35,999 nucleotides of DNA. It comes from Nitrospinota bacterium (GTDB lineage Bacteria > Nitrospinota > Nitrospinia > Nitrospinales > JACRGP01). The stretch lies in NCBI GenBank assembly GCA_016217765.1, contig JACRGP010000148.1, forward strand, positions 1-35,999, in the 5' to 3' direction. The notes under the pieces were generated by a model. It ran no database searches, was not told the origin of the DNA, and saw only the letters and a program-made list of their open reading frames with translations. Position 1 is the first letter of the stretch, and each line of letters starts with the position of its first letter. Below, one piece after another: positions 3,709 through 34,610 of this stretch. Made by a program: the position numbers and the translations under genes.

Positions 3709-3733
3709 GACCGGCGGACGGGAGGAACCCATC

Positions 3734-5266: not shown

Positions 5267-5380
5267 ATACTCAGCCAGGATATCCTTTCTGGAGAATTAT
5301 CGCCATTCATTCCCGAAGAAGGGTTTGTCAATGCGCAACAAATTTACGGATGCGTCACAACGCATCTTGATTTCTTCAAT

Positions 5381-6811: not shown

Positions 6812-6814
6812 TGC

Positions 6815-8841: not shown

Positions 8842-9281
8842 CGAGAGAGCCATTCATGCGTCCAAGCAATCGCTGGGGTTCGATCGCCCTGCTGGTCCTG
8901 TTTCTGTGCTCCTGCGCCCCGCAACCCCAAAAGGAAGTCCCGGCGGAGTACAAAAGCGGACAAAAATATTTTCATCAAATCTGCTCCAACTGCCATAATT
9001 CCGACGCCATGGGCGGCCTGACCAAGGCCCCCAAACTCATTGACGGCGATTACGCGCCCGACGGTTTCAGCGATGGAGACATACGCGACACCGTCCTCAA
9101 CGGGACCAAAAAGATGCCCCCGCAGAAGGGGAAACTCAGCGAGGAACAGATCTCGGAAATCATCAAATACCTGAGGTATTCCCAGAAGGCGGCGGGATTG
9201 ATACCGGACGAAAAAAGCGCGGAACAGGACGATGACGACGAGGCAGACGGCGAGGAGGAGGACCCCGCCGCCAAATCCTGA
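8838..9281 (+). CDS. Lipoprotein c-type cytochrome
   Basis: Lipobox-like LFLCSCAP; haem site CSNCH; distal Met region KKMPPQKGKLSEEQISEIIKYLR. Confidence 0.88.
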   Translation: MTREPFMRPSNRWGSIALLVLFLCSCAPQPQKEVPAEYKSGQKYFHQICSNCHNSDAMGGLTKAPKLIDGDYAPDGFSDGDIRDTVLNGTKKMPPQKGKLSEEQISEIIKYLRYSQKAAGLIPDEKSAEQDDDDEADGEEEDPAAKS

Positions 9282-9333
9282 GAAACGGATAACGCGCCCG
9301 GCGGCCGCGCCGGATTTCCGTCCATCCGAACGC

Positions 9334-9362
9334 TTGACAGGGTTCCGGATTTTGATTAGATT
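9334..9362 (+). promoter_or_regulatory. Predicted sigma70-type promoter upstream of the aminotransferase
   Basis: TTGACA - 17 nt - TAGATT. Confidence 0.5.
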
Positions 9363-9427
9363 AATCGATCCAACCGAGCGCCCAACGCGCGTTTGATCAG
9401 ATCAATGAAATATTGGAGCGTGTTTTT

Positions 9428-10669
9428 ATGTCCGCAAGAGAAGCCTATATACAAAAACTCTTTGCCAACCGTCTAGGCGGTAGCCAGTTTGGCAAAGACA
9501 CTAAAATCTATAAATTCGAGAAGATTAAAAGGGCCAAACGGGCCGCCCTGGAGGCCAACCCCGGCAAGGAGTTGATCGACCTGGGGGTCGGCGAACCGGA
9601 TGAGATGGCGTACCCGGGAATCGTGAAGTGCCTGCAATTGGAGGCGGAGAAGCCGGAAAACCGCGGTTACACCGATAACGGGATCGAGGACTTCAAAAAA
9701 GCCGCGGTGAAATACATGGAGAAGGTTTACAACGTGACGGGATTGGACCCCGCCAAGCACGTGAACCACACCATCGGATCCAAACCCGGCCTGGCGATGG
9801 TCCCCTCGCTATTCATCAATCCCGGCGACGTGGCGCTGATGACCGTTCCGGGTTACCCGGTCTTGGGCACGCACACCCAGTATCTCGGCGGCGAAGCGCA
9901 CAACCTCCCCTTGACGGAGGAAAACCATTTCCTGCCGGACTTGAAAAAAATCGATCCCAAGATCCTTAAAAGGGCCAAGCTACTCTGCTTGAACTATCCC
10001 AACAACCCCACGGGGGCGAACGCCACCCACGAATTTTACGAAGAGGCCGTCGAGTTCGCCAAAGCCCACAATATCGTCGTCATCCAGGACGCCCCGTATG
10101 CGGCGTTGACGTACAACGGGCAACCCTTGAGTTTTCTTTCCGTTCCCGGGGCCATCGACGTCGGGGCCGAGTTCCATTCCCTTTCCAAGGCGTACAACAT
10201 GACCGGCTGGCGCCTGGCCTTCATCGCCGGCAACGAATTGGTGGTCAAGGGGCTGGCCCACGTGAAGGACAACATCGACTCCGGCCAGTTCGCGGCCATC
10301 CAGAAAGCCGGGATCTACGCTCTGGAACATCCCGAAATCAGCAAGGAAATCGCGGAAAAATACAAACGGCGCCTGACCCTGATGGTCGATACCCTCAACT
10401 CGCTCGGGTTCTCGGCGAAAATGCCCGGCGGTTCCTTTTTCCTGTACGTCAAAGCTCCCAAGGGCATCGCGGAAGGACGCCGGTTCGAGTCCGCCGAGGA
10501 CTTCTCGCAATACTTGATCGTCGAGCATCTGATCTCCTCCGTCCCCTGGGACGATGTCGGCCATTTCGCGCGGTTCTCCGCGACGTTTTCCGCGAAGGAC
10601 AAAAAGGACGAAATCCGCATCATGGAGGAAATCAAGAAACGGCTGTCGACGGTCAGGTTCGAATTCTGA
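9428..10669 (+). CDS. dapL: LL-diaminopimelate aminotransferase-type class I/II aminotransferase (ORF track start 9413)
   Basis: ELIDLGVGEPDEMAYPGIV; GYTDNGIEDFKKA; LNYPNNPTGA; SLSKAYNMTGWRLAF (PLP lysine). Confidence 0.85.
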   Translation: MSAREAYIQKLFANRLGGSQFGKDTKIYKFEKIKRAKRAALEANPGKELIDLGVGEPDEMAYPGIVKCLQLEAEKPENRGYTDNGIEDFKKAAVKYMEKVYNVTGLDPAKHVNHTIGSKPGLAMVPSLFINPGDVALMTVPGYPVLGTHTQYLGGEAHNLPLTEENHFLPDLKKIDPKILKRAKLLCLNYPNNPTGANATHEFYEEAVEFAKAHNIVVIQDAPYAALTYNGQPLSFLSVPGAIDVGAEFHSLSKAYNMTGWRLAFIAGNELVVKGLAHVKDNIDSGQFAAIQKAGIYALEHPEISKEIAEKYKRRLTLMVDTLNSLGFSAKMPGGSFFLYVKAPKGIAEGRRFESAEDFSQYLIVEHLISSVPWDDVGHFARFSATFSAKDKKDEIRIMEEIKKRLSTVRFEF

Positions 10670-10692
10670 CCCGCGGGGAGCCTTCCGGCCGG

Positions 10693-11190
10693 ATGTCGAA
10701 AACCGCTTACATCGGCATAGGGTCCAACCTCGAAAATCCGCTGAAGAATTGCAAGGAAGCGATCGGCAGGCTGTCGGCGCGAAAGGGCATAACCCTCACG
10801 GCCCGTTCTTCGTTTTATAAAACGGAGCCCGTGGGCATCACGGACCAGGATTGGTTCGTCAACGCCGTCGTGGAAGTCAGGACGACGCTCGATCCCCCGG
10901 CCCTGCTGGAAGCGTTATTGGAAATCGAACGCGGTATGGGAAGAATCCGCGGAAAGAAATGGGGCCCGCGGTCGATCGACCTGGACCTGTTGTTCCATGA
11001 GGACGCGGTCCTGGACCTGCCCGGACTGACCCTTCCCCATCCGGAAATCCCCCGCAGAAGATTCATACTCGCCCCCATGAGCGAAATTGCCGGCGGGTTC
11101 CAGCATCCGGTCTTGAAAAGGACGGTCAACGATCTTCTGGCGGAACTTCCGGAATCTCCACATGCCATCCGGATCGCCGACTCGTCATGA
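10693..11190 (+). CDS. folK: 2-amino-4-hydroxy-6-hydroxymethyldihydropteridine pyrophosphokinase
   Basis: IGIGSNLENPLKNCKEAI; SSFYKTEPVG; KWGPRSIDLDLL; LPHPEIPRRRFILAPM. Confidence 0.95.
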   Translation: MSKTAYIGIGSNLENPLKNCKEAIGRLSARKGITLTARSSFYKTEPVGITDQDWFVNAVVEVRTTLDPPALLEALLEIERGMGRIRGKKWGPRSIDLDLLFHEDAVLDLPGLTLPHPEIPRRRFILAPMSEIAGGFQHPVLKRTVNDLLAELPESPHAIRIADSS

Positions 11191-12372
11191 CCGGTCCAGA
11201 TCGAAGACCTGCATGTTCTCGATGGCTTCCCGCATAAGGTCCTTCCAGGGATACCGCTCCTCGTCGGCCTCCAATTGGTCCACCTTGCTCCGGATCGCCG
11301 GGTTGGGCGGCATGAATACGGAACAGCAGTCGGGATGGGGTTCTATGCTGACGTCGTAGGTCCCGATTTTTTTGGCCTCGTCGATGATGTCTTTTTTGTC
11401 CATCCCGATCAAGGGCCGGAACACGCTGAGCGGGACCGTGCAAGAGACGGCGGCCAGGTTCTCCAAAGTCTGCGAGGCCACCTGCCCTATCGACTCCCCG
11501 GTCACCAGCGCCAGGCACCCGTATTTTTCGGCAAGCGCGTGGGCGATGCGGTACATCATCCGGCGGTACAGGACGACGCGATGGGCCGGAGTGCACAAGT
11601 CCCGTATGGCGGTCTGCAGATTTCCGAAAGGGACGACGCAAAGCCGCCCGCCCCACTGGTACCGGTTGACGATCTTCGCCAGGCGATGCGTCTTATCGAA
11701 TCCGCCGCGCCCCAAAAAAGCCTGGTTGTCGAAAAAGACGAAATGCGACCGGCATCCCCGGCGGATGACCATGAACGCCGCGACGGGACTGTCGATGCCC
11801 CCCGATAGCAACGTCAAAACCTCTCCGCCGGAGCTTACCGGCAGTCCGCGAATGCCGGGAACGCGGCCTTGGAACGCCACCGTCTCCTCGTGACCGATCT
11901 CGATCTCCAATACGAATTCCGGAGTCTTGAACTCCGCGGACAGGCCCTTGTCATGGAGCTTTTGCAGGATTTTCGCGCCCACCTGGTAACTGAAATCGGG
12001 CGAAGTAATTGGAAAGGTTTTGTCCGACCTCTGCGTCCGCGCGTAAAACGTCAGGGGCTTCCCGGACGCCAACAGAGGCTCGATCCACTGGATGCCCAGC
12101 TCGGCGATCGAATCGACATCCGGCCGGATGGGAACTCCCACGCTGAAGGAAACAATCCCCGGTATCATGCGCAGTCGGCGGACGCACTCGTCGACCTGGG
12201 TTTCGTCGATATCGACCAGGATCCGTCCGCGAGGACGGCGGTAGCGGACTCCCTCCATGTCCGCCAGCTTCCTCCGGATATGGTCGATCAGGCGGCTTTC
12301 GAAAAAACTCCGGTTTTTTCCCTTGAGTCCGATTTCATCGTAGCGGACGAGGACGATTCTGGGCCGGCTCAT
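11185..12372 (-). CDS. thiI: tRNA 4-thiouridine synthase ThiI (no rhodanese extension)
   Basis: LVRYDEIGLKGKNRSFFE; THUMP region; LLSGGIDSPVAAFMVIRRGC PP-loop; ends CCSVFMP... without a rhodanese domain. Confidence 0.93.
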   Translation of the reverse strand: MSRPRIVLVRYDEIGLKGKNRSFFESRLIDHIRRKLADMEGVRYRRPRGRILVDIDETQVDECVRRLRMIPGIVSFSVGVPIRPDVDSIAELGIQWIEPLLASGKPLTFYARTQRSDKTFPITSPDFSYQVGAKILQKLHDKGLSAEFKTPEFVLEIEIGHEETVAFQGRVPGIRGLPVSSGGEVLTLLSGGIDSPVAAFMVIRRGCRSHFVFFDNQAFLGRGGFDKTHRLAKIVNRYQWGGRLCVVPFGNLQTAIRDLCTPAHRVVLYRRMMYRIAHALAEKYGCLALVTGESIGQVASQTLENLAAVSCTVPLSVFRPLIGMDKKDIIDEAKKIGTYDVSIEPHPDCCSVFMPPNPAIRSKVDQLEADEERYPWKDLMREAIENMQVFDLDRS

Positions 12373-13553
12373 TTTTCGGCGTGTTTGTGTTGGAAGGTTG
12401 GGTACAGGGTTTGATGGGCGCGCGCGAACTCCCGCAGGAAGACCTCTATTTCATCCTCCGTATTCTGGCGCCCGAAAGAAACCCGCAAACTGCAACGGGC
12501 CTCGTCCTCCGTCAGCCCGATGCCGGTGAGGATTTTCGAAGGCTCTCGGGAATGGGCGCTACAAGCGCTTCCCAGTCCCACGAAGACGTCTCGTTCCTCC
12601 AGGTGGTGCAGAAGGACCTCTCCCTCCACCGGAGGAAAACTGAAGTTGACGATGGCGGGAGACTGGATTTCGACATCGTCCAGGGTCGAGGAATTAAAGC
12701 GTATGTCCAAATTGTCCAACCGGCCGGAAAGGTCCCGCAACCCCTCGATCAGGCGCCGGCGGAGTTTCCGCAGATGCTCCTGGGTCTCTTTCAGCCTCTC
12801 AATGGAAAGGCGCATGGATTTCGCCATCCCCAGGATCAACGGGACGGGCAAGGTGCCGGAGCGCAGTCCGGATTGCTGTTTACCCCCGTGGATCAGCGGG
12901 GTCAACGTCAGGCGCGAATCGTATACGAGCAGGCCGATCCCCTTGGGGCCGTTGATCTTGTGCGCGGAAATCGAATAACCGGCAAGCCCGTTCCAAAATT
13001 CCGGCTTGATGGACAGCTTGCCGACCGCCTGCACGCCGTCGAGAAACAATCGCGTCTGGGGCGACCCCACAGCCAGCGCGGAGAGTATCCGCGCGGGATC
13101 GTTGACGGCGCCCAGCTCGTTGTTGACATGAGAAAGGCACAACAACCGGACGCGGTTTTCCTTGAGAATGGGGATGGAATCCAGGTCCAACCGCCCTTCC
13201 CGGTTCGCCAACCGCGGGCCGTCGTTTCCCAGGCTCTTGAAGTAATCCAGAATTTCCGTGACACTGGGATGTTCCAACCCCAGGCAGGCGGTTTTTTTAT
13301 CGGGGAAACACAATCCCTTGATGAATAGATTGTTCGATTCGCTCCCGCCGCTGGTGAATACGGTCCGGAATTGGGAAGGCAACCGAAGCAGGCTGGCGAT
13401 CTCCTCGCGGGCGGCCTCGACCCTGTTTTTCGCGTCCAGGCCGAGCCGGTAGACGGCCCCGGAATTGGCGAAATCCCTGCGCATGGACTCGTTCACAACC
13501 TCCAAAACCTGAGGGTCCACCGGAGTGGTGGCGGCATTATCCAAATAAATCAT
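12369..13553 (-). CDS. Cysteine desulfurase (NifS/IscS family)
   Basis: MIYLDNAATTPVDPQVLEVV; SAHKINGPKGIGLL (PLP Lys); GSACSAH active-site Cys; 4-nt overlap with thiI. Confidence 0.93.
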   Translation of the reverse strand: MIYLDNAATTPVDPQVLEVVNESMRRDFANSGAVYRLGLDAKNRVEAAREEIASLLRLPSQFRTVFTSGGSESNNLFIKGLCFPDKKTACLGLEHPSVTEILDYFKSLGNDGPRLANREGRLDLDSIPILKENRVRLLCLSHVNNELGAVNDPARILSALAVGSPQTRLFLDGVQAVGKLSIKPEFWNGLAGYSISAHKINGPKGIGLLVYDSRLTLTPLIHGGKQQSGLRSGTLPVPLILGMAKSMRLSIERLKETQEHLRKLRRRLIEGLRDLSGRLDNLDIRFNSSTLDDVEIQSPAIVNFSFPPVEGEVLLHHLEERDVFVGLGSACSAHSREPSKILTGIGLTEDEARCSLRVSFGRQNTEDEIEVFLREFARAHQTLYPTFQHKHAEK

Positions 13554-13647
13554 GTTTTCGTCCGAGAATAAAAAACGTTGGCGCGCCTAACAAAGGGAGG
13601 GGAGTAATTTGAGCGTCGAGCCAAATGGTTCATTTTGTTACACGCTC

Positions 13648-14202
13648 TCAGGGCCGGTAGGGGGGAAGCAGGTCGTGTTCCACGCCGAGTTGGCTCAGGA
13701 TTCGGGCGACGACGAAATCCACCAGGTCGTCCACGGTCTTCGGCCCCTGATAGAACGCGGGCGAAGCGGGCAGGATGACGGCTCCCGCCTGGTCGAGGGC
13801 CAGGAGATTCTTCAAGTGGATGGCGCTCAACGGGGTCTCCCGGGGGACCAGGACCAACTTCTTTTTTTCCTTCAACATCACGTCGGCCGCGCGCTCGATC
13901 AGGGAACCCGAAACCCCGCCGGCGATCCTCCCGATAGTCCCCATGCTGGCGGGAACGATCGCCATGCCGTCGACCGGGAAAGACCCGCTGGCAATGGGCG
14001 AATTCATTTTGGAGTTCTTGTACACGGTCACGTTTTCCCTGGCGAAATAACCGGACCCGATGTCCAGCTCGATATTGCACAGCTCGGCGCCCCGTTCGGA
14101 AAGGATGACGTGCAACTCGGCCTTCGGTTGCAAATAATCGAACAGGCGCTTGCCGTAACAGACACCGCTCGCCCCGGTAATCGCCAGGATAAATCGCTTC
14201 AT
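13648..14202 (-). CDS. ubiX: UbiX-type flavin prenyltransferase
   Basis: AITGASGVCYGKRLFDYL; SFPVDGMAIVPASMGTIGRIAGGVSGSLIERAADVMLKEKKKLVLVPRETPLSAIHLKNLL. Confidence 0.94.
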   Translation of the reverse strand: MKRFILAITGASGVCYGKRLFDYLQPKAELHVILSERGAELCNIELDIGSGYFARENVTVYKNSKMNSPIASGSFPVDGMAIVPASMGTIGRIAGGVSGSLIERAADVMLKEKKKLVLVPRETPLSAIHLKNLLALDQAGAVILPASPAFYQGPKTVDDLVDFVVARILSQLGVEHDLLPPYRP

Positions 14203-14206
14203 GAAT

Positions 14207-14860
14207 TCACGTCAGTTTGAACAGATCGTCCACCTCCCGGCGTATCCGGGCATGGACGACTTCCCTGGCCGGCTGGCTGTCGATCCGACGGACCCGCGGG
14301 CCGGAAAAACGCCTGAACAGGCTCTCCACCTTTTTCAGGTATTCCAGTTGCTCGAATGCGCTCAGGCCGCCGTTCCGGCCTTCCTTGATGCGTTGGAGGC
14401 ACTTCTCCGGCGGCGCCTCGAAGATGAAAACCAGGTCCGGCTTGGGAGCGAAGGATTCGTTCTCCCGGCATATCCTGTCCGGGTCGAGTCCCAAGGCGCC
14501 CTGGTACGCGGCCGTGGAATAATAATAGCGGTCGATCAGGACCGCCTTTTTCATCTCCAGGGCGGGTTTTATATTGAGGGCGACGTCCTCCTTCCGGTCG
14601 TTGACGAACAAGGCCAATTCGTCCTCGGGAGAAATCCCAAGGCGTCCTTCGCTGAGAATTTTCCTGATCTCCATCCCCCAACGGCCCCGCGTCGGCTCGC
14701 TAAGGCAGACCGCGGGTATCCCCCGGCTTTCCAGGTAACCGGCCAACATCCGGCAATGAGTTGACTTGCCCGTCCCGTCGATGCCCTCGAACACAATCAG
14801 ATATCCCCGGTCCAGTTCCACGGCGTCGCCCTTCGGCGGAAATTCAGGTTCAGCGTCCAT
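14207..14860 (-). CDS. tmk: Thymidylate kinase
   Basis: YLIVFEGIDGTGKSTHCRMLAGYLESRG; DRYYYSTAAYQGA. Confidence 0.94.
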   Translation of the reverse strand: MDAEPEFPPKGDAVELDRGYLIVFEGIDGTGKSTHCRMLAGYLESRGIPAVCLSEPTRGRWGMEIRKILSEGRLGISPEDELALFVNDRKEDVALNIKPALEMKKAVLIDRYYYSTAAYQGALGLDPDRICRENESFAPKPDLVFIFEAPPEKCLQRIKEGRNGGLSAFEQLEYLKKVESLFRRFSGPRVRRIDSQPAREVVHARIRREVDDLFKLT

Positions 14861-14889
14861 TAACGATTATACATCCATCGGCGAATCAG

Positions 14890-15111
14890 TCATAAATCGC
14901 GAAACCGATCGCCCCGCCCAGCTCTCCCAGTGGATTGATTCGGTTTGGGGAGTTCTTTCCCGGCGGTTTTGCGAAAAACTTTCTTTGCCTCGCAAATCAC
15001 GACGTCGGCCGTCAAACCCTTATCGCCCTTCGCGGGATCGTTTATCAATTTCTGGTTCGTGGCGACGATCGTCCTCGCGGCCCGGAATAACTCAGTGGCT
15101 TCAAATGCGAT
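14890..15111 (-). pseudogene. Remnant of a DUF3365 (Tll0287-like)-type domain
   Basis: Reading frame between stops: IAFEATELFRAARTIVATNQKLINDPAKGDKGLTADVVICEAKKVFRKTAGKELPKPNQ...*; no start codon and a stop immediately upstream. Confidence 0.45.
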
Positions 15112-15374
15112 TTAGCCCATATCGTAAAAGGAATCCATTTACAAGTCCATGGCAAAAACGCCAAGGACCCGGCCGCGCGGACGCCGTGAACATCCCGCCG
15201 GGGGAAATGCGCGCGCGGAACCCGCGATCTTCGCGTCATCTGGCGCGGTTGCATTTGGACCGGTTTTGCCTCATAATCGATAAACAGGCTATCAATCAAT
15301 CTTTGTAAGAAGTTACGCTCCATTGACTCCCCAATCCAACCTCGTATTTTTACAGTAGAGACGGCGACGGATAA

Positions 15375-15908
15375 GTGAAAAAACACTTCAAGATTTTCGG
15401 ATGGATATGCCTTGGAATTTTATTGCAATTCAAGTTCGACGTTTTGTACCGGATCGTTGTCCTTGAAAACCTGAGTTTTCACGAGCGCGGGTATTTCGTA
15501 AAAATGCGTCTTTTCCCCGCGTCCGAAAACCTTAGCGTCCTCCACGTGGAGACCGTTGTCCATCATTCGTTGGGGCCGGATTATTTCGCGAACGTTTACA
15601 TCCCCGAATGGTATAAAGTGATCAATAAAACACCTTACCTGGGCGCCGAAGCCATACCGGGTTACCAGGCGTATCAAATGAACATGCGGCGGAAATACCG
15701 CCACGTCCTGGCGGCGGAGGATTTGATCATCGCTCCCAAGGAACCGGACAAGGACGTCGAGGCGGCGCCGGTCCTGGTCCATTTTGAAAATCAGAAACAA
15801 CGTCTCCACGACGACAAGACTTACCGTTTGACCACGAAGAACAAGGACACCCAATTGGAAGGGCCGGAAATGGTCGAGGCCAAATACCGCCAGCATGTGG
15901 GTCTATAA
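15375..15908 (+). CDS. Uncharacterised protein with N-terminal hydrophobic segment
   Basis: ORF of 177 aa with codon-like composition; [47 protein letters not shown]. No family recognised. Confidence 0.7.
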
Positions 15909-25758: not shown

Positions 25759-25974
25759 ATGACCCTATCCATTCGCCTGGCCCCGGAAACCGAAAAGAAA
25801 CTTACCCGGCTGGCCAAGGAAACCGGCAAATCGAAAAGCGTCTGCGCCCGCGAAGCCATTGACGAATATCTGGAGGAGCGGGAGGATTTTCGCATTGCCC
25901 TTGACCGGCTGAAAAAAGAAAAAGGGGAAATCGACCTCCGTTCAGCGAGAAAAAGACTTGGCCTGGCAGATTAA
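25759..25974 (+). CDS. Ribbon-helix-helix antitoxin (RelB/CopG-like)
   Basis: MTLSIRLAPETEKKLTRLAKETGKSKSVCAREAIDEYLEEREDF; overlaps toxin gene start. Confidence 0.85.
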   Translation: MTLSIRLAPETEKKLTRLAKETGKSKSVCAREAIDEYLEEREDFRIALDRLKKEKGEIDLRSARKRLGLAD

Positions 25975-26232
25975 GTTCCGCCCTTCGGCTTTGAAAGAGT
26001 TGTCCAAGCTGGCCCGTCCATTACAATCCCGCATCCTGAACAACCTGGAGTCGCTCTGTCCTCATCCCCCCGCGACAAAGGTAAACAAATCCGATTTGGC
26101 GAGAACGGGCCGGTTTTATGGCGCTACCGCGTCGGAGATTACCGGGTCGTCTGTTTCTTGCGGGATGAAGATCAAACCGTTCTCGTTCTCCGCGTCGGAC
26201 ACAGAAAAGAAGTTTACAGACGAAGAAAATAA
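25958..26232 (+). pseudogene. RelE/ParE-family toxin, frameshifted at a C6 tract
   Basis: N-term in frame 2 (MAWQIKFRPSALKELSKLARPLQSRILNNLESLCPHP); C-term in another frame (RDKGKQIRFGENGPVLWRYRVGDYRVVCFLRDEDQTVLVLRVGHRKEVYRRRK*). Confidence 0.85.
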
Positions 26233-26302
26233 TGTTCCCAAGCCCCTTCTCCTTCGTTACGAATTTAAAACTCCATAAAACGCCAAATTTGTGTAATGAA
26301 AA

Positions 26303-26345: not shown

Positions 26346-26390
26346 TGCCCCCGACACGATTCGAACGTGCGACCTGCGGATTAGGAATCC
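26346..26390 (-). repeat. att direct repeat, left copy (displaced tRNA-Arg 3' fragment)
   Basis: TGCCCCCGACACGATTCGAACGTGCGACCTGCGGATTAGGAATCC, identical to 34537-34581. Confidence 0.95.
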
Positions 26391-26406
26391 CCGGATTCCA
26401 TGTTCC

Positions 26407-26434
26407 TTGACATTCCCAATCCTTCCTGTACAAT
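26407..26434 (+). promoter_or_regulatory. Predicted integrase promoter
   Basis: TTGACA - 16 nt - TACAAT, upstream of the integrase. Confidence 0.6.
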
Positions 26435-26487
26435 GGTTTAGCCCGCCAATACTGGGGATGCGGTGTTCCCGGGTTTTCCCCGCAAAG

Positions 26488-26520
26488 GTGGGACAGGAGT
26501 GGGACAAAAGTGGGACAGAA
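26488..26520 (+). repeat. Three tandem 11-bp iterons GTGGGACARRA (candidate integrase arm sites)
   Basis: GTGGGACAGGA GTGGGACAAAA GTGGGACAGAA; two matching copies at 34455-34476. Confidence 0.8.
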
Positions 26521-26534
26521 GAAAAGGAGACACT

Positions 26535-27785
26535 ATGGGCGAATGGAGGCGGACGAGTTTTCCGGGGGTAAGGTCGAGGCATCACGAAACGCGGAAGTTC
26601 AATGGAAGACCGGACCAGTACTTCGTGATCCGGTATGGAAGGCATGGGAAAAAGGTCGAGGAGACCGTTGGTTGGGCAAGCGAGGGAGTCACGCCCCAAT
26701 ACGCGGCGCAAATACGCGGTCAAATCGTCTCCAACATCCGGGTAGGGCATGACTTCCAATCCCTGAAGGAGAAACGCGAATTGGAGCAGGCTCGGCGGCA
26801 AGAGGAAGCGGCGCGGAGGGAAATCCTCGAAAAGGAAAACACGCCCTTCCGCGTTTTGGCCGAAAGATATCTCGCATGGGCGGAGACCTCCAAAAAAACG
26901 TCGAGGAACGACATGAGCCGGTGGAAGTTTCACATTGCCCCCGTGCTGGCGGATGTCCCGATCAAGGACATTTCTGTGATCCACCTTGAGCGGTTGAAGC
27001 GGGAAACGGTAAAGAAGAAGCTGGCCCCGGCAACCGTGAAGCACGTTCTCGTATTGACGCGGCAAATGTTCAACAAGGCCATCGGTTGGGGGCTGTACGA
27101 CAAGGAAAACCCCATCCGCTCCGTCCTGGCCGTCGATAAAAAGTTTTTGAAGACCCCGGACAACCGGCGGGCGCGTTTTCTTTCCCGCGACGAAGCGGAC
27201 ACCTTGCTTTACGCCCTGGCCGCCAAAAGCGTCCATGTCCACGATATCGCCCTGCTGTCCCTTTACACCGGCCTTAGGCTGGGCGAAATCTTCAACCTGA
27301 AATGGGCGGACATCGACCGCGAACACGGGATCATCCACGTCAAGGACGCGAAGAGCGGGGAAAGCCGGACAGCCTATATCACGGAACCGGTCAAGGAAAT
27401 GCTCCGGCGGCGAATGGCCGAAGGCCCCGGAAGGGACGAGCTGGTTTTCAAGGACCGCAAAGGCAGGAAAATTCTCGAACTGTCCAACACCTTCCAGCAC
27501 ACCGTTGACCGGCTGGGGTTCAATAAGGGCATAACCGACCGGCGGGACAAGGTGATTGGCCACACCTTGCGCCATACGTTCGCGTCCTGGCTGGCTATGG
27601 AGGGTGTCCCTGTCATCACCATTCAAAAACTGATGGGACACCGTTCGATTGAAATGACCTTGCGGTACGCGCATTTGTCCCCAAGCCATGAAAGGGAGGC
27701 GGCGGCGAAACTGGCGGAGCGGAAAAGCGGGAATCTTTTGAGATTCCAAATTGGAATGTCGAAAGAAGCCGGTATCGCCGAATGA
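26535..27785 (+). CDS. Tyrosine recombinase/site-specific integrase (ORF track start 26463)
   Basis: LYTGLRLGEIFNLKWADID (Arg I), HTLRHTFASWLAMEGVPVITIQKLMGHRSIEMTLRYAHLSP (H-x-x-R, H, Y). Confidence 0.95.
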   Translation: MGEWRRTSFPGVRSRHHETRKFNGRPDQYFVIRYGRHGKKVEETVGWASEGVTPQYAAQIRGQIVSNIRVGHDFQSLKEKRELEQARRQEEAARREILEKENTPFRVLAERYLAWAETSKKTSRNDMSRWKFHIAPVLADVPIKDISVIHLERLKRETVKKKLAPATVKHVLVLTRQMFNKAIGWGLYDKENPIRSVLAVDKKFLKTPDNRRARFLSRDEADTLLYALAAKSVHVHDIALLSLYTGLRLGEIFNLKWADIDREHGIIHVKDAKSGESRTAYITEPVKEMLRRRMAEGPGRDELVFKDRKGRKILELSNTFQHTVDRLGFNKGITDRRDKVIGHTLRHTFASWLAMEGVPVITIQKLMGHRSIEMTLRYAHLSPSHEREAAAKLAERKSGNLLRFQIGMSKEAGIAE

Positions 27786-28357
27786 AAAAAATTCCCGGCC
27801 AAACAGAAGCCGTTGTCCCCGTCCAGGACGTTGCGCGTAGGATATTTCTGATTCGCGGTCACCGGGTGATGATCGACCGCGATCTTGCCGAATTGTATGG
27901 GGTTGTCACAAAGGCCCTGAATCAAGCTGTAAAACGGAACATCAGGCGGTTTCCCTCCGATTTCATGTTCCGGTTGACCCCGGAGGAAACAAAACAACTG
28001 GTCACAAATTGTGACCGGTTCGCTTCCTTAAAACACGCGGCCACAACCCCGCATGCGTTTACGGAGCAAGGCGTAGCCATGTTGTCCAGCGTGCTCAAAA
28101 GCGAACGCGCTATCGATGTGAACGTCAACATCATGCGGGCGTTTGTGCGAATCCGGGAACTGGCGTTGACCCACAAAACCATTTTACGGAAACTGGAAGA
28201 CCTCGAACGCAAATACGTTTCCCACGACGTAAAAATAGAGACGATCTTCGAGGCCATCAAGGAACTCATGATCCAACCCGACAAACCGGCCCGGCGGATC
28301 GGGTTCAAACCCGGCGATGCCGGCGGGGGAACCAAGGGGCGCAATTCAAAACCTTAA
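27782..28357 (+). CDS. ORF6N domain-containing protein
   Basis: RRIFLIRGHRVMIDRDLAELYGVVTKALNQAVKRNIRRFPSDFMFRLTPEE...TPHAFTEQGVAMLSSVLKSERAIDVNVNIMRAFVRIRE. Confidence 0.93.
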   Translation: MKKIPGQTEAVVPVQDVARRIFLIRGHRVMIDRDLAELYGVVTKALNQAVKRNIRRFPSDFMFRLTPEETKQLVTNCDRFASLKHAATTPHAFTEQGVAMLSSVLKSERAIDVNVNIMRAFVRIRELALTHKTILRKLEDLERKYVSHDVKIETIFEAIKELMIQPDKPARRIGFKPGDAGGGTKGRNSKP

Positions 28358-28373
28358 CCGTGGAGGAGAAATT

Positions 28374-28529
28374 ATGAAGCTGAATGATGTCGAGATTTTT
28401 GACCTGGCAATTGAGAAGATGATCTTGGCCCGTCGGAATGCGCTCAAGGCGGAGGACGCTGGAGCAGAAATCCCGGTGATTATGGCCTCCGACGATGACA
28501 AACTGGAAACCGGTTTTCGGGTTTGCTGA
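28374..28529 (+). CDS. Small hypothetical protein
   Basis: ATG with GGAGGAG upstream; MKLNDVEIFDLAIEKMILARRNALKAEDAG... Confidence 0.55.
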   Translation: MKLNDVEIFDLAIEKMILARRNALKAEDAGAEIPVIMASDDDKLETGFRVC

Positions 28530-28635
28530 CTGGAGTATGGTTTGAGAAAACCGCGTCTAGGGTAGCTCCCGAAAGGCCGGACACCTTCACCGGCTTGACG
28601 CGGTTCTCTTTTGAAGGCGCTGGAAGGGGCGCGAA

Positions 28636-29040
28636 ATGGCGGATAAAAAAAACAGGTCTTCAAAGAGCAAACCAGGGGCAAAACCGCCCGATCCCAATCG
28701 CGAAGCCTATGACGAGTTTCGGGGGGGCTTTGAGGAGTTTGTAGGGGGCGCGGAAAAGGACAAATCTGGAGAGACCGAAGATGAATTGTCCCGGCGTTTG
28801 TCGGATCCGTCGTTACCACTTTATGACCAGTTACAAGCCGCAAATGCCCTTTTGTTGCGCTTGTATGCTGGCTATGTCGCCCCGCTTGCGCTATTAAAGT
28901 GCCGCCTTCGGCAAGAGAAAGAAAAAACCGGTAAGAGAAAACTCATATCAATGTATCTTTCGGCAATGGGGGTAGTGAACCTTGCCAAAGGAAAAAAAAA
29001 ACAGCCACTCCCCCGAAGAAGTCTCCCGGTTCTATCGTAG
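28636..29040 (+). CDS. Hypothetical protein
   Basis: 134-aa ORF MADKKNRSSKSKPGAKPPDPNREAYDEFRGGFEEF...; A9 tract near the 3' end overlaps the next ORF. Confidence 0.6.
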   Translation: MADKKNRSSKSKPGAKPPDPNREAYDEFRGGFEEFVGGAEKDKSGETEDELSRRLSDPSLPLYDQLQAANALLLRLYAGYVAPLALLKCRLRQEKEKTGKRKLISMYLSAMGVVNLAKGKKKQPLPRRSLPVLS

Positions 29041-29311
29041 TAAAATAACCGGGATCAGCCTGCCAGTCCTGTGGATGCAAGACGCCCCAGCGCATGCCGG
29101 CCTCGAAAAGATAGTTGTCGATCAAATGGCAAGGGGTTTAAACAACAAGTACCCGCCATCACTTGCGATACCCCCCAAGGAAGCCGTCAAGGAAACAAAG
29201 GCGTTCTTCGGGTTTCAATCCCTCAACTCATGCGCCCGGTATCTCCGTGGGACATGTAAGTTGAAAAATATCCCCGATTTTGGACACGCCCGACCCCCTC
29301 TAGTCCCTTAA
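28982..29311 (+). CDS. Hypothetical protein, possibly the frameshifted continuation of the preceding ORF
   Basis: TTG start, 109 aa; overlaps the previous ORF at the A9 tract. Confidence 0.45.
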   Translation: MPKEKKNSHSPEEVSRFYRSKITGISLPVLWMQDAPAHAGLEKIVVDQMARGLNNKYPPSLAIPPKEAVKETKAFFGFQSLNSCARYLRGTCKLKNIPDFGHARPPLVP

Positions 29312-29330
29312 AAAACGCCAGTTAGTCCCC

Positions 29331-29359
29331 CGTCGTTTTAGGGAGTCCCTATAACGACG
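29331..29359. repeat. 29-bp near-perfect palindrome
   Basis: CGTCGTTTTAGGGA-G-TCCCTATAACGACG; 13 of 14 positions pair. Confidence 0.9.
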
Positions 29360-29456
29360 TAGACACCCTCGCATCCTTGTCATAAGTTTCCCCTCGTGAA
29401 CAACGGGAACCCTGAGAGGCTCCCCGGATTAAAAATTTTTCATGAAGGGATGCCGC

Positions 29457-29675
29457 ATGACAACGGACCAAAAACCGCTTTTTGTTTCACGAACCGAAGT
29501 TGACAAGCTTTTTCAGGGGTTGAATCGAAAGACGTTGGCGAACCTGCTTTCCGAGGGACGCGGCCCAAGGGCCTACAAGAATGGCCGTAAGGTGTTTTAC
29601 AAGGTTGCGGACATCGAAGCCTGGCTGACCCAGCGGCCCGTTCTGACCGTCGATCGGGGGAGCGAAGCGAAATGA
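29457..29675 (+). CDS. AlpA/MerR-like helix-turn-helix protein (excisionase family)
   Basis: FVSRTEVDKLFQGLNRKTLANLLSEGRGPRAYKNGRKVFYKVADIEAWL HTH_17 pattern. Confidence 0.8.
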   Translation: MTTDQKPLFVSRTEVDKLFQGLNRKTLANLLSEGRGPRAYKNGRKVFYKVADIEAWLTQRPVLTVDRGSEAK

Positions 29676-30025
29676 CGAACGCGCAAACAAGAACGCCCGG
29701 CGGGAACCGGGCGCGGGGAAGAACCAAATATTACGAGAAACATTCTACCGCGAAATCCCCCCGGTATCAACGTCAAAATGCCATCCCAACCCCGGAAGCG
29801 TTTTACCGGCGCCAGTTCCCCGGCCTCCGGGCGCGGAACGGATGGGCGTTGGTCAGATGTTGTTTCCACAACGACCGCAACCCCAGCCTGTCGATCAACT
29901 TGAGCGGGGGCCACTTCAAATGCCATGCTTGCGGCGCGAAGGGCGGCGGGATCGTGGACTTCCGCATAAAGCAGACCGGCTTTTCCTTTCGCGATGTTAT
30001 CCGAGAGTTGGAGGGCGGGCGATGA
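29672..30025 (+). CDS. CHC2 zinc-finger (primase N-terminal-like) protein
   Basis: VRCCFHNDRNPSLSINLSGGHFKCHACGAKGGGIVDF. Confidence 0.87.
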   Translation: MTNAQTRTPGGNRARGRTKYYEKHSTAKSPRYQRQNAIPTPEAFYRRQFPGLRARNGWALVRCCFHNDRNPSLSINLSGGHFKCHACGAKGGGIVDFRIKQTGFSFRDVIRELEGGR

Positions 30026-32202
30026 TGGCAACCCTCCCAACACACGAAGACGCGAAGGCGGCGGCCAGGAAGTTGACCGCTTCCCTGGTCGATAAGGGCT
30101 ATCGCCCATCCGGGCTGTACGTTTACGAGGACGCGGAAGGAATTCCGTTATTTTGGCGTATCCGGCTTGACCATCCCAAAAGCGGTAAATGGGTCCGCCC
30201 CCTGTCGTTCAACGGCAACGGCTGGGAGTTGAAGGAGCCGGATTTCCAGAACGGGAAACCGCTTTATGGGTTGTCAACAATCGTGAAAAATCCCGATGCT
30301 CCGGTTTGGGTAGTCGAAGGGGAAAAGTGCGCGGACACACTGGCGAAGCGTGGCTTTGCCTCTACAACAAGCGGATCGTCAACATCGGCGGACAAAGCGA
30401 ACTGGAAGCCCCTGGCCGGGCGAAACGTTATCTTGTGGCCGGACAATGACGAGCCGGGCAAGCGATACATGGCCGAAGTATCCGCGAAACTGCTCCAACT
30501 GGGTTGCCATGTGCAGACCGTCGATATCGCCCGCCTGAACCTCCCGGAAGGCGGCGATTGCGTTGATTGGTTGGCGGCCCGTCCCGGCGCGGGGGGCAAG
30601 GACGTTGAGACCTTGCCGCTGGTCGAAGCGCAAAATCCCGTTGACGACGAACCTTTATCCGCCATCTTGGGCCAATGCGGATTTGATGACCTTTCGGACA
30701 AATCGCCCGTCGAGGACATTCACCAAGCGGTCAAGGGGTTCGCGTCTGCCATCGAGGGGCGCGATCCTGTATGGTTGAAGCTGGCCCATGGCGAAATTGT
30801 CAAGCGGCTTGAGGACATCGGCGTTAAAGGCGCGGCAAAAGTCGTAAGCTCCGCGTTCAAGCCCCCAGTTGGCGAAGCAAGCAAAGCGCGGGGCTCGAAA
30901 CCCGTTCTCTTCGAGGACGTGGAACCCTGGCCGGAACCGGCGGACGGAGCGGGGCTTTTGGACGAAATCACCGCGATTTTGAAGCGATTCGTCATCATGC
31001 CAGAAATGGCGAATGTCGCAAACTCCCTCTGGATTCTCCATGCTTGGGCTATCGATTCCTTCCAGGTCTCTCCGCTCCTTCGGATCGAAAGCCCGGCCAA
31101 GGGATGCGGTAAATCAACTCTGTTGATGGTCAACGGCGAACTCCTTCCCCGGAATCTTTCGACCGCCAATATCACGACCGCCAGTTTGTTCCGCCTGGTC
31201 GATTCGCACGGTGTTTCTTTGTGCATCGACGAGACAGACACAAGCTTCCGCGAAAATCAGGATTTGATCGGGTTGGTCAATGCTGGGTATCTTGGGTATC
31301 TGAAGAAAACCGCGATAGCTCCCAGGTGCGACGGAGATTCCCACGAGGTCAAACTATTTTCGAGCTGGTGTCCCAAGGTCCTGGCGGGGATCGGGCGGCT
31401 TTCGGACACGACGGAAAGCCGGTGTATCCGAATAAGGCTTGAACGCAAGTTGCCCGGTGAAAAAACCGAACCGTTTTCGCTTTGCAAGACGGAAATTTTC
31501 GCCCCCATCAAAGAGAAACTGGCCCGGTGGAGCGCGGACAACCTGGGGGCATTGGCGGAAGCGACCCCGGACATCCCGAAAGGTTTGGGAGACCGGGCGG
31601 CGGACAACTGGAGACCATTGTTGGCGGTTGCCGATCTTGCGGGCGGGCCTTGGCCGGAGCAAGCAAGAAAGGCGGCCTTGGAACTTTCGGGGAACGATGC
31701 CCAGGACGACGATTCGCCGGGCATGGCGCTCTTTGAGGACATCAAGGAATTTTTCGAGCATGGGCACACCGATACAGTTTCAAGTGAAACGCTGGTCAAT
31801 CACCTTGTAGGGTTAGAAAGTCGTCCCTGGGCCGAATGGCGGCAAGGGAAACCTATCTCAAAAAACGGACTGGCCCGGCTTCTTAAAAAGTTTGGGATCG
31901 GCCCAAGGCAATTCAAGGAAAACGGCGATAAGACACGCGGGTACTTTCTTGACGACTTCTGGGAAGTTTTTTCAAGATATTTACAGGCCCCCGGTAATCC
32001 AACCGGTACAACCGGTACCGTGCGAGAAAGTAAGGACTTATCCGGTTTTTCAAACGGTACCGAAAAAAAGTTGGTACCGGATGGAAATAACGATAACCTC
32101 TTTGAAAACAGGCGGGTACCGGTTGTACCGGATGGAATCCCCGGTATGAGCGAAAAAAAAGAAATTGGCGGTCTTTTTGAGGCGGAGGAGTTTCAAGTAT
32201 GA
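30022..32202 (+). CDS. TOPRIM-DUF3631 primase/helicase-like protein
   Basis: VWVVEGEKCADTLAKRGF...NVILWPDNDEPGKRYM (TOPRIM); SPAKGCGKSTLL Walker A; SLCIDETDTSF; start ATG 30022 within ORF 29842..32202. Confidence 0.9.
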   Translation: MMATLPTHEDAKAAARKLTASLVDKGYRPSGLYVYEDAEGIPLFWRIRLDHPKSGKWVRPLSFNGNGWELKEPDFQNGKPLYGLSTIVKNPDAPVWVVEGEKCADTLAKRGFASTTSGSSTSADKANWKPLAGRNVILWPDNDEPGKRYMAEVSAKLLQLGCHVQTVDIARLNLPEGGDCVDWLAARPGAGGKDVETLPLVEAQNPVDDEPLSAILGQCGFDDLSDKSPVEDIHQAVKGFASAIEGRDPVWLKLAHGEIVKRLEDIGVKGAAKVVSSAFKPPVGEASKARGSKPVLFEDVEPWPEPADGAGLLDEITAILKRFVIMPEMANVANSLWILHAWAIDSFQVSPLLRIESPAKGCGKSTLLMVNGELLPRNLSTANITTASLFRLVDSHGVSLCIDETDTSFRENQDLIGLVNAGYLGYLKKTAIAPRCDGDSHEVKLFSSWCPKVLAGIGRLSDTTESRCIRIRLERKLPGEKTEPFSLCKTEIFAPIKEKLARWSADNLGALAEATPDIPKGLGDRAADNWRPLLAVADLAGGPWPEQARKAALELSGNDAQDDDSPGMALFEDIKEFFEHGHTDTVSSETLVNHLVGLESRPWAEWRQGKPISKNGLARLLKKFGIGPRQFKENGDKTRGYFLDDFWEVFSRYLQAPGNPTGTTGTVRESKDLSGFSNGTEKKLVPDGNNDNLFENRRVPVVPDGIPGMSEKKEIGGLFEAEEFQV
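32003..32137. repeat. Cluster of GTACCGG/CCGGTAC iterons
   Basis: CCGGTAC at 32003 and 32012; GTACCGG at 32074, 32116 and 32125; ACGGTACCGA near 32054; 13-mer GTACCGGATGGAA repeated at 32074 and 32125. Confidence 0.75.
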
Positions 32203-32606
32203 CGGGCCAAACGTTGATCGAGGTTCTCAATGGGAAGCGTGTCCGCTTGACGGTTGATGGGGGAATTTTAAGAGCCGTTGCCCCGCCGGGCGTTTTGACG
32301 GACGACTTGAAGACGGCCTTGAAAGAACACAAGCAGGAAATAATCCAAGCCCTCTACCTGTCCGGGTTGACCAAAATCGAACGCCAGGCTTACGACGAAT
32401 GGTTTGCAACAATGGTTGGGGAGCCGTTCGGCATGACCCCCGAAGAGGCGCATCGGAAAACGCGGGAGCTTCTTGAGGCTTCCCGGAAATTCCTTGAGGC
32501 CAACCCTCATTTGAAGGCCGATCCATGCCGGCAATCCAAAAGGGAGGAAGGTGATTCATGCCCAGGAAGTGCACGGTATGCGGCCATCCGAAACGGCGGG
32601 AGATAG
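32199..32606 (+). CDS. Protein with TubC N-terminal docking-like domain
   Basis: LRAVAPPGVLTDDLKTALKEHKQEIIQAL. Confidence 0.65.
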   Translation: MTGQTLIEVLNGKRVRLTVDGGILRAVAPPGVLTDDLKTALKEHKQEIIQALYLSGLTKIERQAYDEWFATMVGEPFGMTPEEAHRKTRELLEASRKFLEANPHLKADPCRQSKREEGDSCPGSARYAAIRNGGR

Positions 32607-32845
32607 ACCGGCTCTTGATTCAAGGCGGCACGATCCGGGGCATAGCGAAACAATTCCGGTTGAACTCAAACGCGGTTCACCGGCACAAGCAGGGACACTT
32701 GCCCGTTAAATTAAAGGAGGGCGCGAAAATGGAAGAGGACAAGCAATCCGGCAATTTGTGGGGGGAGTTGACCGGCCTCCGGGCGCGGGCTTACGCCATC
32801 CGGCATTATGAAGCGACGATGCCGGAACTTTTCGAGGCGGAATAA
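32558..32845 (+). CDS. Small Zn-binding/HTH-like protein
   Basis: CTVCGHPKRREIDRLLIQGGTIRGIAKQFRLNSNAVHRHKQGHL; good SD. Confidence 0.7.
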   Translation: MPRKCTVCGHPKRREIDRLLIQGGTIRGIAKQFRLNSNAVHRHKQGHLPVKLKEGAKMEEDKQSGNLWGELTGLRARAYAIRHYEATMPELFEAE

Positions 32846-32860
32846 AGAAGGGATCAACCA

Positions 32861-33232
32861 ATGAGAAAGATGACGAATCTAAAACCTTTCAAGAAGGGGC
32901 AATCCGGGAACCCGAAAGGGCGGCCCAAGGGAGCCAGGGACGGCCTCCGGGCGCATTTGAACCGGGTCTTGCAAAAGACTCCCGATAAAACGGCGGTCGA
33001 GATTCTCAAGGAACTTGGGGTATCTCTGGACGACGAGTCCAACGCGGAGGGCGTTGCCTACGTCCTCCTGCGAAAGGCCCTGCAAGGGGACATTCAGGCG
33101 ATCAAGCTGATATTCGATCAGACCGAACAGCCATTAAAGCAAAACATCAGCCTCGAAACCAAGGACCCAGTCCAAATCTACCTCCCGGACAACGGAAGAT
33201 CGGCGGAAAGCGGCCCGGAGGTTTATGAATGA
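32861..33232 (+). CDS. DUF5681 domain protein
   Basis: FKKGQSGNPKGRPKGARDG motif at the N-terminus. Confidence 0.85.
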   Translation: MRKMTNLKPFKKGQSGNPKGRPKGARDGLRAHLNRVLQKTPDKTAVEILKELGVSLDDESNAEGVAYVLLRKALQGDIQAIKLIFDQTEQPLKQNISLETKDPVQIYLPDNGRSAESGPEVYE

Positions 33233-33254
33233 ACCGTGGAGGAACAGTGAGGGG

Positions 33255-33482
33255 TCAACCGAGGAGTTTGACGACGGCAACCACGATGCCCGTCAAGGCG
33301 ATTATCGAGGAGACATTCCACATGATGAGCGTTCGGCCCATGCGTTCGATTTCAGCCCGCAAATCGCCCTTGACCGCTTCCAAGTCGGCCTTGGTGGCGA
33401 AGTGTTTCATTTCCGCCTTGATACTGGCGATGTCTTCCTTGATCCGGTGGATGTCCTGTTCGAGGGTTACGGTGTCCGCCAT
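33255..33482 (-). CDS. Small coiled-coil protein with C-terminal TM helix
   Basis: DIHRIKEDIASIKAEMKHFATKADLEAVKGDLRAEIERMGRTLIMWNVSSIIALTGIVVAVVKLLG; antisense to neighbouring genes. Confidence 0.7.
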   Translation of the reverse strand: MADTVTLEQDIHRIKEDIASIKAEMKHFATKADLEAVKGDLRAEIERMGRTLIMWNVSSIIALTGIVVAVVKLLG

Positions 33483-33527
33483 GATGGATTCCTTGAAGTT
33501 CCCTTATGATACTTCCCGGAACGGAGT

Positions 33528-33995
33528 TTGGCAAGGATGAACGGACGGTTTTCGCGGTCGAAGGGGCAACGCGGGGAGCGGGAATTGTGCGCCATCCTGT
33601 CCGCCAGGTTGGGGGTTGACATCAAGCGCGGGCTGTCCGCTTCCAGGGAAGGCGGGGCGGATACCCTGGACTTGCCCGGCTTTGCCGTCGAGGTGAAGCG
33701 TTGCGAGAAGGAAAACCTGTCCGCCGGGTGGAAACAAACGGTCGAGCAGGCCGGGGACCGGATGCCGGTTTTATTCTTCCGGGCAAGCCGGAAGCCCTGG
33801 GCGGCGGTTGTTCCAATCCGGTTCTTCATGGATCAACTGGACTACCCGGCGGGGGTTGAACCTTATGGCCCGGCCATCCTGGGACTGGACAGCTTTTGCG
33901 CCCTGGTCAAGGCGTTTCACTTGCCGGAAGGGAAACCCGAACCGGTATCCTTGACCGACTACGCCCGCCAGTTGGCGGAAGCCGGGATAAGATGA
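33528..33995 (+). CDS. PD-(D/E)XK-like nuclease/Holliday-junction-resolvase-like protein
   Basis: SKGQRGERELCAILSARLGVDIKRGLSASREGGADTLDLPGFAVEVKR (E...D...EVK arrangement). Confidence 0.7.
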   Translation: MARMNGRFSRSKGQRGERELCAILSARLGVDIKRGLSASREGGADTLDLPGFAVEVKRCEKENLSAGWKQTVEQAGDRMPVLFFRASRKPWAAVVPIRFFMDQLDYPAGVEPYGPAILGLDSFCALVKAFHLPEGKPEPVSLTDYARQLAEAGIR

Positions 33996-34119
33996 CGGGT
34001 ACCCCCAAGGGGGGCTCAAATCTCTACCCCCTGTAAGGGACTAGACCGTTTGCCGAAGGCTTCTTCGTATGCGGCCAAAATTGATTTAAATTTCCAGAAA
34101 ACTTTTCGAGAGGTGGGAC

Positions 34120-34314
34120 ATGAAAGGCAGAAAACCACTACCCACGAAGTTGAAGCTTTTGAAAGGCACGGCCAGGAAACACCGGCGGAACAAGAATGAA
34201 CCACAGCCCGGCCCGGCATCCGTTGAACCCCCGGCTTGGCTTGGCCCCGAATCGCGGCCTTATTGGGATCGGCTGGCCCCCGACGAGCCGGGGGACCCAT
34301 TCAGCCAGTTTTGA
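34120..34314 (+). pseudogene. Truncated P27-family terminase small subunit
   Basis: MKGRKPLPTKLKLLKGTARKHRRNKNEPQPGPASVEPPAWLGPESRPYWDRLAP then stop after 64 aa. Confidence 0.75.
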
Positions 34315-34384
34315 CATTCAGGGGCGTTATTGGTAAAATAAAGTTGTCGCATGGCAAGGCGCGGCAAGGCATGGGTTTCACATA

Positions 34385-34416
34385 ACCGGGAGTCCTTCGG
34401 GGCTTCCGGTTTTTTT
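34385..34416 (+). terminator. Rho-independent terminator at the element right end
   Basis: ACCGGGAGTCC-TTCG-GGGCTTCCGGT-TTTTTT. Confidence 0.8.
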
Positions 34417-34454
34417 GTCTTGAAACCCTATTTTGCCCCCGGAATCCCGCAGAA

Positions 34455-34476
34455 GTGGGACAGGAGTGGGACAAAA
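34455..34476 (+). repeat. Two tandem 11-bp iterons matching 26488-26509
   Basis: GTGGGACAGGA GTGGGACAAAA; 34446-34477 matches 26479-26510 at 30 of 32 bases. Confidence 0.85.
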
Positions 34477-34487
34477 GCCTAAAAAAC

Positions 34488-34527
34488 AACAATGGCCTGA
34501 CGGGACAATATCCGCCAAGCCATTGTT
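34488..34527 (-). terminator. Hairpin, probable tRNA terminator supplied by the element
   Basis: AACAATGGC ... GCCATTGTT, 9-bp stem with flanking A/T runs, immediately 3' of the tRNA on the minus strand. Confidence 0.6.
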
Positions 34528-34533
34528 TTTATT

Positions 34534-34610
34534 TGGTGCCCCCGACACGATTCGAACGTGCGACCTGCGGATTAGGAATCCGTTGCTCTATCCTGCTGAG
34601 CTACGGGGGC
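34534..34610 (-). tRNA. tRNA-Arg(CCU), 74 nt plus encoded CCA
   Basis: Minus strand GCCCCCGTAGCTCAGCAGGATAGAGCAACGGATTCCTAATCCGCAGGTCGCACGTTCGAATCGTGTCGGGGGCA-CCA; cloverleaf fits, anticodon loop TTCCTAA. Confidence 0.95.
34537..34581 (-). repeat. att direct repeat, right copy (within intact tRNA-Arg)
   Basis: Identical 45-mer to 26346-26390. Confidence 0.95.

Follow-up and report, generated by a model that had tools for sequence, protein, structure and literature searches.

Architecture of the integrated element

The window analysed here is a 35,999-nucleotide stretch of DNA (contig JACRGP010000148.1, positions 1 to 35,999 of the forward strand) from the Nitrospinota bacterium assembly GCA_016217765.1, and it harbors an integrated element, termed element A, at a tRNA-Arg gene. 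An exact 45-bp repeat, far beyond chance, occurs at 26346..26390 and 34537..34581, the start-to-start distance of 8,191 bp defining the element. The right copy corresponds to the 3' part of an intact tRNA-Arg(CCT) gene (34534..34610, minus strand; ARAGORN and Rfam) that was made whole again by the insertion, and the left copy is the displaced attachment-site core. In G005, a genome of the same genus, the tRNA-Arg gene, the terminator and both flanks are uninterrupted and nearly identical, and the 45-bp core is present once. Thus, the insertion is precise and real, and absent from a relative. The repeat coordinates, the tRNA call and this empty site bear out the first-pass annotation, which had described an 8.19-kb block in tRNA-Arg(CCU) bracketed by exact 45-bp repeats. 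Near both ends, at 26486..26521 and 34446..34477 (plus strand), GTGGGACA-type repeats of families D1/D2, the left ones 94-96% identical to the right-end copy, are likely integrase arm sites.

The left part of element A is devoted to integration and regulation, on the plus strand as are all features below unless stated otherwise. A tyrosine integrase gene (26535..27785; PF00589, E = 7.7e-35; phrog_1, 1.6e-67) precedes that of an ORF6N protein (27782..28357; PF10543, 2e-31; anti-repressor phrog_4792, 6e-28; PADLOC PDC-S05, 7e-62). An int-alpA structured RNA (28550..28617; RF02996, 64.6 bits, E = 5e-12, gathering threshold 35.8) sits, as is defining for this RNA element, between the integrase gene and that of an AlpA-like helix-turn-helix (HTH) regulator and excisionase candidate (29457..29675; PF12728 (HTH_17), 6.6e-7, above gathering; phrog_66). 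Two overlapping frames of the same interval (28636-29040 and 28982-29311) read as one gene split at an A-run (28636..29311); it has no family match in Pfam and PHROGs scans, and represents a pseudogene, a frameshift or an assembly error.

The replication module starts with a CHC2 zinc-finger primase part (29672..30025; PF01807, 2.7e-10), followed by a TOPRIM primase-AAA+ helicase of the DUF3631 family (30022..32202; PF12307, 1.5e-46). The Pfam match of the TOPRIM portion is weak (4e-4, under the gathering threshold), yet PHROGs and the structure model show this portion clearly. The model of the helicase is similar, though at low TM-scores, to PriRep1 (7pds), the NrS-1 helicase, MCM and the TOPRIM fold of DnaG, and the helicase profile found no match among PDB sequences; from the model, we read the DUF3631 protein as a putative primase-helicase. 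Its gene overlaps by ATGA with that of a TubC_N beta-hairpin docking-domain protein (32199..32606; PF18563, 2e-12).

The right part contains packaging-type genes. The first, o95 (32558..32845), encodes a 95-aa zinc-ribbon/HTH protein, a short candidate resembling small terminases (TerS), with homologues directly upstream of the large terminase (TerL) gene in phages and viral contigs. In the viral contigs L168-L170, these homologues lie immediately upstream of TerL (4e-104, 5e-65 and 2e-42, respectively), mostly overlapping it, and the same holds for L030, Thermus phage Riverbug and Caudoviricetes vir515. The slot directly upstream of TerL is one that TerS genes commonly occupy. Conservation extends to the residues of the zinc ribbon and the HTH, and the copy of element A is shorter at the C-terminus. 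As the annotation of Riverbug names a different gene as TerS, o95 is a candidate TerS only. It is followed by a DUF5681 gene (32861..33232; PF18932, 1.9e-16), a small coiled-coil/membrane protein gene on the minus strand (33255..33482; weak coiled-coil matches), a RusA-like/PD-(D/E)XK nuclease gene with phage relatives (33528..33995; phrog_244, 1.4e-16; PDDEXK_15, 1.2e-5), an internally deleted P27-type TerS gene (34120..34314) and a conserved non-coding right end with a terminator-like hairpin (34315..34436).

The domains named in the first-pass annotation (int, ORF6N, AlpA-like HTH, CHC2, TOPRIM-DUF3631, TubC_N, DUF5681 and PD-(D/E)XK-like) were all matched in Pfam and PHROGs. Its P27-type TerS belongs to the family (phrog_83, 1.4e-9), but the gene is only 64 aa long, 84 codons short against its counterpart in a second element of the same genome. 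As it had also stated, capsid, portal, large terminase and tail genes were not found in Pfam/PHROGs scans inside element A.

A second element in the same genome

When the own genome was searched with the primase-helicase, contig C22 was matched, at 71% across the first 246 aa. The reverse complement of C22 (L004 = G000:C22) and contig C80 (L127 = G000:C80) share an exact 141-bp end overlap, and their join yields 50-bp repeats around 9,284 bp, the end of which holds tRNA-Pro(CGG); this second, complete element is hereafter called element B. The two elements share ORF6N (77% identical), CHC2 (67%) and TOPRIM (71%), and their right ends are 94% identical over 140 bp. Element B differs in its integrase and its target, and has a DUF3987 helicase fused to TOPRIM in place of DUF3631. 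It also carries an int-alpA RNA, an AlpA gene (PF05930), a TubC remnant, an o95 fragment (89% over 46 aa), the coiled-coil gene and a nuclease remnant, as well as two TerS genes, one Nu1-like (phrog_57, 1e-30) and one P27-type as the last gene. In both elements the ORF6N gene overlaps int by ATGA. Within this genome the int-alpA RNA is confined to A and B. The ratio of nonsynonymous to synonymous substitution rates between them is about 0.22 for ORF6N, 0.31 for CHC2 and 0.34 for TOPRIM, and these genes have therefore been under purifying selection since the split of A and B. Together, the pair gives a direct view of module exchange, in which the regulators and the packaging end are the same and the integrase, target and helicase have been swapped. 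Element B, the int-alpA RNA, the arm-like repeats at both ends and o95 had been overlooked in the first-pass annotation.

A further copy of the coiled-coil/membrane gene lies at L004:8336-8620, just outside the left repeat of element B, and is a possible remnant of a third tandem element.

Relatives in other genomes and viral contigs

DUF3631 was surveyed at 103 loci in genomes and viral contigs; 80 kept loci are the best-scoring of 221, and the frequencies are biased accordingly, the marker-gene counts (TerS, capsid, TerL, portal) being seed-limited as well. An integrase match lies nearby at 74 of the 103 loci, a TerS-like match at 15 and the DUF5681 gene at 8, the last following TubC_N in other elements too. 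Elements bounded by attachment sites range from 6.6 to 19 kb, most of them near 8-10 kb. Within the phylum, 2 of 77 genomes have DUF3631; these two, and no others, have TubC_N, next to DUF3631 in each case.

Two relatives are closest in layout besides element B. The first, in a genome of another Nitrospinota family (G041), has int, int-alpA RNA, HTH, primase, DUF3631, TubC_N and a full-length Sf6-like TerS (phrog_1482, 5e-37). The second, from Desulfobacterales (L024), is a 9.1-kb element at tRNA-His flanked by 69-bp repeats, in the order int-ORF6N-int-alpA-AlpA-DUF3631-TubC_N-TerS, again with a full-length TerS (phrog_309, 8e-27). The int-alpA RNA occupies the same place in all four elements, and the TerS families at comparable positions differ (P27, Nu1-like, Sf6-like and phrog_309).

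Several further features were observed among these elements. Past its TerS, the G041 element carries defence-like cargo (L013:8197-15059), namely a DISARM/IIG-like methyltransferase, a SocA/Panacea-domain protein and an HKD/Snf2 helicase. Another Nitrospinota genome, G027, contains a 14.3-kb tRNA-Lys element without DUF3631 (L167, reverse complement, 1084-15403), with int, int-alpA RNA, AlpA, a lone major-capsid-like gene recognised by eye, a Nu1-like TerS and a 1,649-aa protein. A major-capsid-like gene is also found at L025:13501-14601 and L033:5820-7241, in 8-9 kb DUF3631 elements bounded by attachment sites, with no portal or TerL match. The record L017 (PV029746.1, Pseudomonas phage Phipami28), deposited as a phage, resembles a bacterial chromosome (ABC transporter, dehydrogenase, Rhs) with a DUF3631-TubC_N element.

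A putative docking partner of the helicase

The first 52 residues of the TubC_N protein are modeled as a beta-hairpin docking domain, matching 8aqq at 0.8 Å over 52 columns. The TubC_N gene adjoins DUF3631 at 55 of the 103 surveyed loci. Where TubC_N follows, the final helicase residue is L, I, V or F in 50 of 55 cases; for helicases lacking this neighbour the figure is 10 of 45. Of the helicases with TubC_N, 31 of 55 show an acidic-hydrophobic C-terminal pattern, versus 1 of 45 without, although the pattern was derived from these very data. Among 245 control open reading frames with the same ATGA/GTGA overlap, some of them spurious, 25 end in L/I/V/F and 6 show the acidic-hydrophobic pattern. 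The possibility that the C-terminal motif is a mere effect of the ATGA overlap is thus not supported by the overlap controls; a Shine-Dalgarno sequence read in frame remains as a confounder, and may account for part of the acidic codons.

We tentatively propose, as a possibility somewhat short of an even chance, a widespread satellite replicon in which the disordered C-terminal tail of the DUF3631 helicase would dock, via a short acidic/hydrophobic motif at its end (for example EVEL, EVF or EFQV-COOH), onto its TubC_N partner, whose gene comes next and in most cases overlaps that of the helicase. If so, phage satellites would have taken over the docking principle of megasynthases for replicating their DNA. 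The pairing of docking domain and helicase offers a concrete, testable protein interaction.

Element A as a probable mosaic phage satellite

Element A is probably a mosaic phage satellite resembling the phage-inducible chromosomal islands (PICIs), in which the gene of a TOPRIM-AAA+(DUF3631) helicase, itself unusual, precedes a TubC_N gene. Like phage satellites in general, it is integrative, carries replication and regulation genes and has an incomplete virion gene set. This reading is the best supported, and agrees with the first-pass annotation, which had proposed a satellite whose family has no obvious counterpart among those known, to be abandoned if homologous loci had structural modules between the same genes or if the genes did not recur together. 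What we found is that the closest relatives (B, L024 and G041) lack a virion module and have TerS near the element end, and that the genes recur together in these three and at DUF3631 loci.

A number of observations weigh against the satellite reading. The P27-type TerS of element A has lost 252 bp (84 codons) in frame internally relative to B, and the gene at 28636-29311 is split. Element B is damaged relative to A, with a nuclease short by roughly 190 bp and a P27-type TerS frameshifted in a G-run. The G041 element reaches the contig end, so the absence of structural genes covers its sequenced part only. Distant DUF3631 relatives have capsid genes at 13 loci, large terminase genes at 9 and portal genes at 3; therefore the replication module is not satellite-specific. 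Scans of viral contigs with the primase-helicase of A alone and with the TerS of B alone gave no relative, and hence no helper phage candidate. TerL_ATPase (PF03354), searched with this one model, was not found in the own genome, a metagenome-assembled genome that is 71% complete.

The alternative raised in the first-pass annotation, a defective prophage stripped of its structural genes within this lineage and now decaying where it integrated, draws on several of these points: the internal deletion of TerS, the split gene, the deletions in B and the capsid, TerL or portal genes of distant relatives; besides, a RusA-like nuclease, an ORF6N anti-repressor and a TerS are commonplace in phages. 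However, the same reduced content with TerS near the end recurs in A and B, despite different integrases and targets, and in L024 of another phylum. Most relatives bounded by attachment sites cluster near one size, the genes shared by A and B are under purifying selection, and no prophage with these genes was found within the phylum. The prophage explanation is thus weakened by the conserved reduced layouts, and we regard it as unlikely, yet the small deletions in both copies and the capsids of distant DUF3631 elements still speak for it. The right-end TerS was also considered as the mark of a lost downstream virion block; this idea was dropped, for B has the same TerS-terminator-attachment site end with a longer TerS.

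Less likely still is that element A is the relic of a capsid-encoding satellite, similar to capsid-forming PICIs (cfPICIs), from which the capsid and packaging block was lost. Such an origin would fit the DUF3631-TubC_N genes upstream of protease, capsid and TerS in the IMG/VR contigs L103/L105, and the portal-capsid-TerL block after DUF3631-TubC_N in the 14.4-kb L047. But the order nuclease-TerS-terminator-attachment site is intact in A and B, with no gap for a lost block, and matches to capsid, portal or TerL are absent from all DUF3631 loci that bear the int-alpA RNA (the G027 element, without DUF3631, does have a capsid-like gene). A small conjugation-dependent element unrelated to phage, mobilisable or akin to the actinomycete integrative and conjugative elements (AICEs), is highly improbable and was rejected: it would account for DUF3631, the family of the AICE replication initiator RepAM (PMC3218068), but Pfam scans inside element A found no relaxase, FtsK/SpoIIIE TraB or oriT-type gene, and terminase-type genes and the AlpA/int-alpA arrangement are present instead.

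Comparison with known systems

The features of PICIs and P4-like satellites used for comparison were taken from general knowledge and from PMC10803314, PMC10690885 and PMC11389934. Element A shares with PICIs of the Staphylococcus aureus pathogenicity island (SaPI) type their core of int, AlpA-type regulator and primase-helicase replicon, as well as candidate TerS-type genes, the lack of an own capsid and a similar size. It differs in its TOPRIM-AAA+(DUF3631) replicon with a docking partner, in having ORF6N for known PICI regulators, in the internally deleted TerS and in its Nitrospinota host. The packaging genes are the deleted P27 TerS and the o95 candidate in A, and the frameshifted P27-type and phrog_57 TerS in B. 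No ppi/rpp/cpm-type interference genes were recognised in A by Pfam/PHROGs, a search made without models dedicated to these poorly conserved genes.

Phage-inducible chromosomal minimalist islands (PICMIs) of Vibrionaceae (PMC10803314) likewise are small and have int with an ATGA-overlapping second gene, AlpA (PF12728 in A, PF05930 in B) and, as in B, a DUF3987 primase. In contrast, the target is a tRNA gene rather than fis, A has DUF3631 instead of a DUF3987/DUF5906 primase (only B fits), TerS-type genes are present that PICMIs lack, and the host is different. As in cfPICIs, genes for protease, capsid, TerS, portal or TerL are found in some of the DUF3631-TubC_N relatives, but the cfPICI block of own capsid, protease, portal and TerL is wholly absent from A and B. 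With P4-like satellites, A has in common int, an AlpA-type protein and a primase-helicase, whereas alpha (D5 family), psu, sid and delta were not recognised in Pfam/PHROGs scans and C4 RNA is lacking. AICEs with RepAM have a DUF3631 replication protein and a tyrosine integrase at a tRNA gene, but A has TerS-type genes in place of their FtsK/SpoIIIE transfer protein. Taken together, element A would work like a PICI or a PICMI, yet fails defining features of PICMIs (fis target, DUF3987/5906), cfPICIs (capsid block), P4 and AICEs.

A literature search of incomplete coverage found no paper linking DUF3631, TubC_N or Nitrospinota to satellites, and DUF3631 appeared there solely as an AICE replication protein. 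The present elements place a probable satellite family in Nitrospinota, and the signature of int-alpA RNA, AlpA, DUF3631-TubC_N and TerS is usable to find more in bacteria remote from known models.

Putative life cycle

For the satellite reading, we propose a cycle of four steps. Initially, Int would keep the element in the tRNA gene and excise it with the aid of the AlpA-like protein, perhaps joined by the ORF6N protein. Excision of PICMIs requires int, alpA and the ATGA-overlapping iolg (PMC10803314); ORF6N overlaps int in the same way in A and B and may participate in excision. The ORF6N protein is likely either a co-factor of excision or induction, occupying the iolg position, or a defence gene, given its PADLOC candidate family PDC-S05. 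The trigger might be a helper phage or its anti-repressor, with the int-alpA RNA as a putative regulator. Afterwards, the CHC2 protein, the TOPRIM-AAA+ helicase and the docking partner would copy the excised circle without relying on the helper replisome. Finally, a satellite TerS (P27-type and/or o95) would recognise the satellite DNA and pair with the helper TerL, directing the DNA into helper capsids, as SaPI TerS proteins redirect packaging (PMC10690885). Since the P27-type TerS of element A lost 84 codons, this last step would rest there on o95 or DUF5681, or is lost; efficient packaging may thus have been lost from A.

Two minor observations concern relatives and surroundings. C4 antisense RNA (P4/P1-type immunity) occurs in the DUF3631 elements or loci L102, L103, L105, L108, L075 of Stutzerimonas stutzeri 4C29, L076, L100 and L032, in some together with isrK. 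Just beyond the left repeat of element A, at 25759-26278, lies a pair of ribbon-helix-helix antitoxin and RelE-like genes, the toxin apparently frameshifted, in a stretch unalignable to G005.

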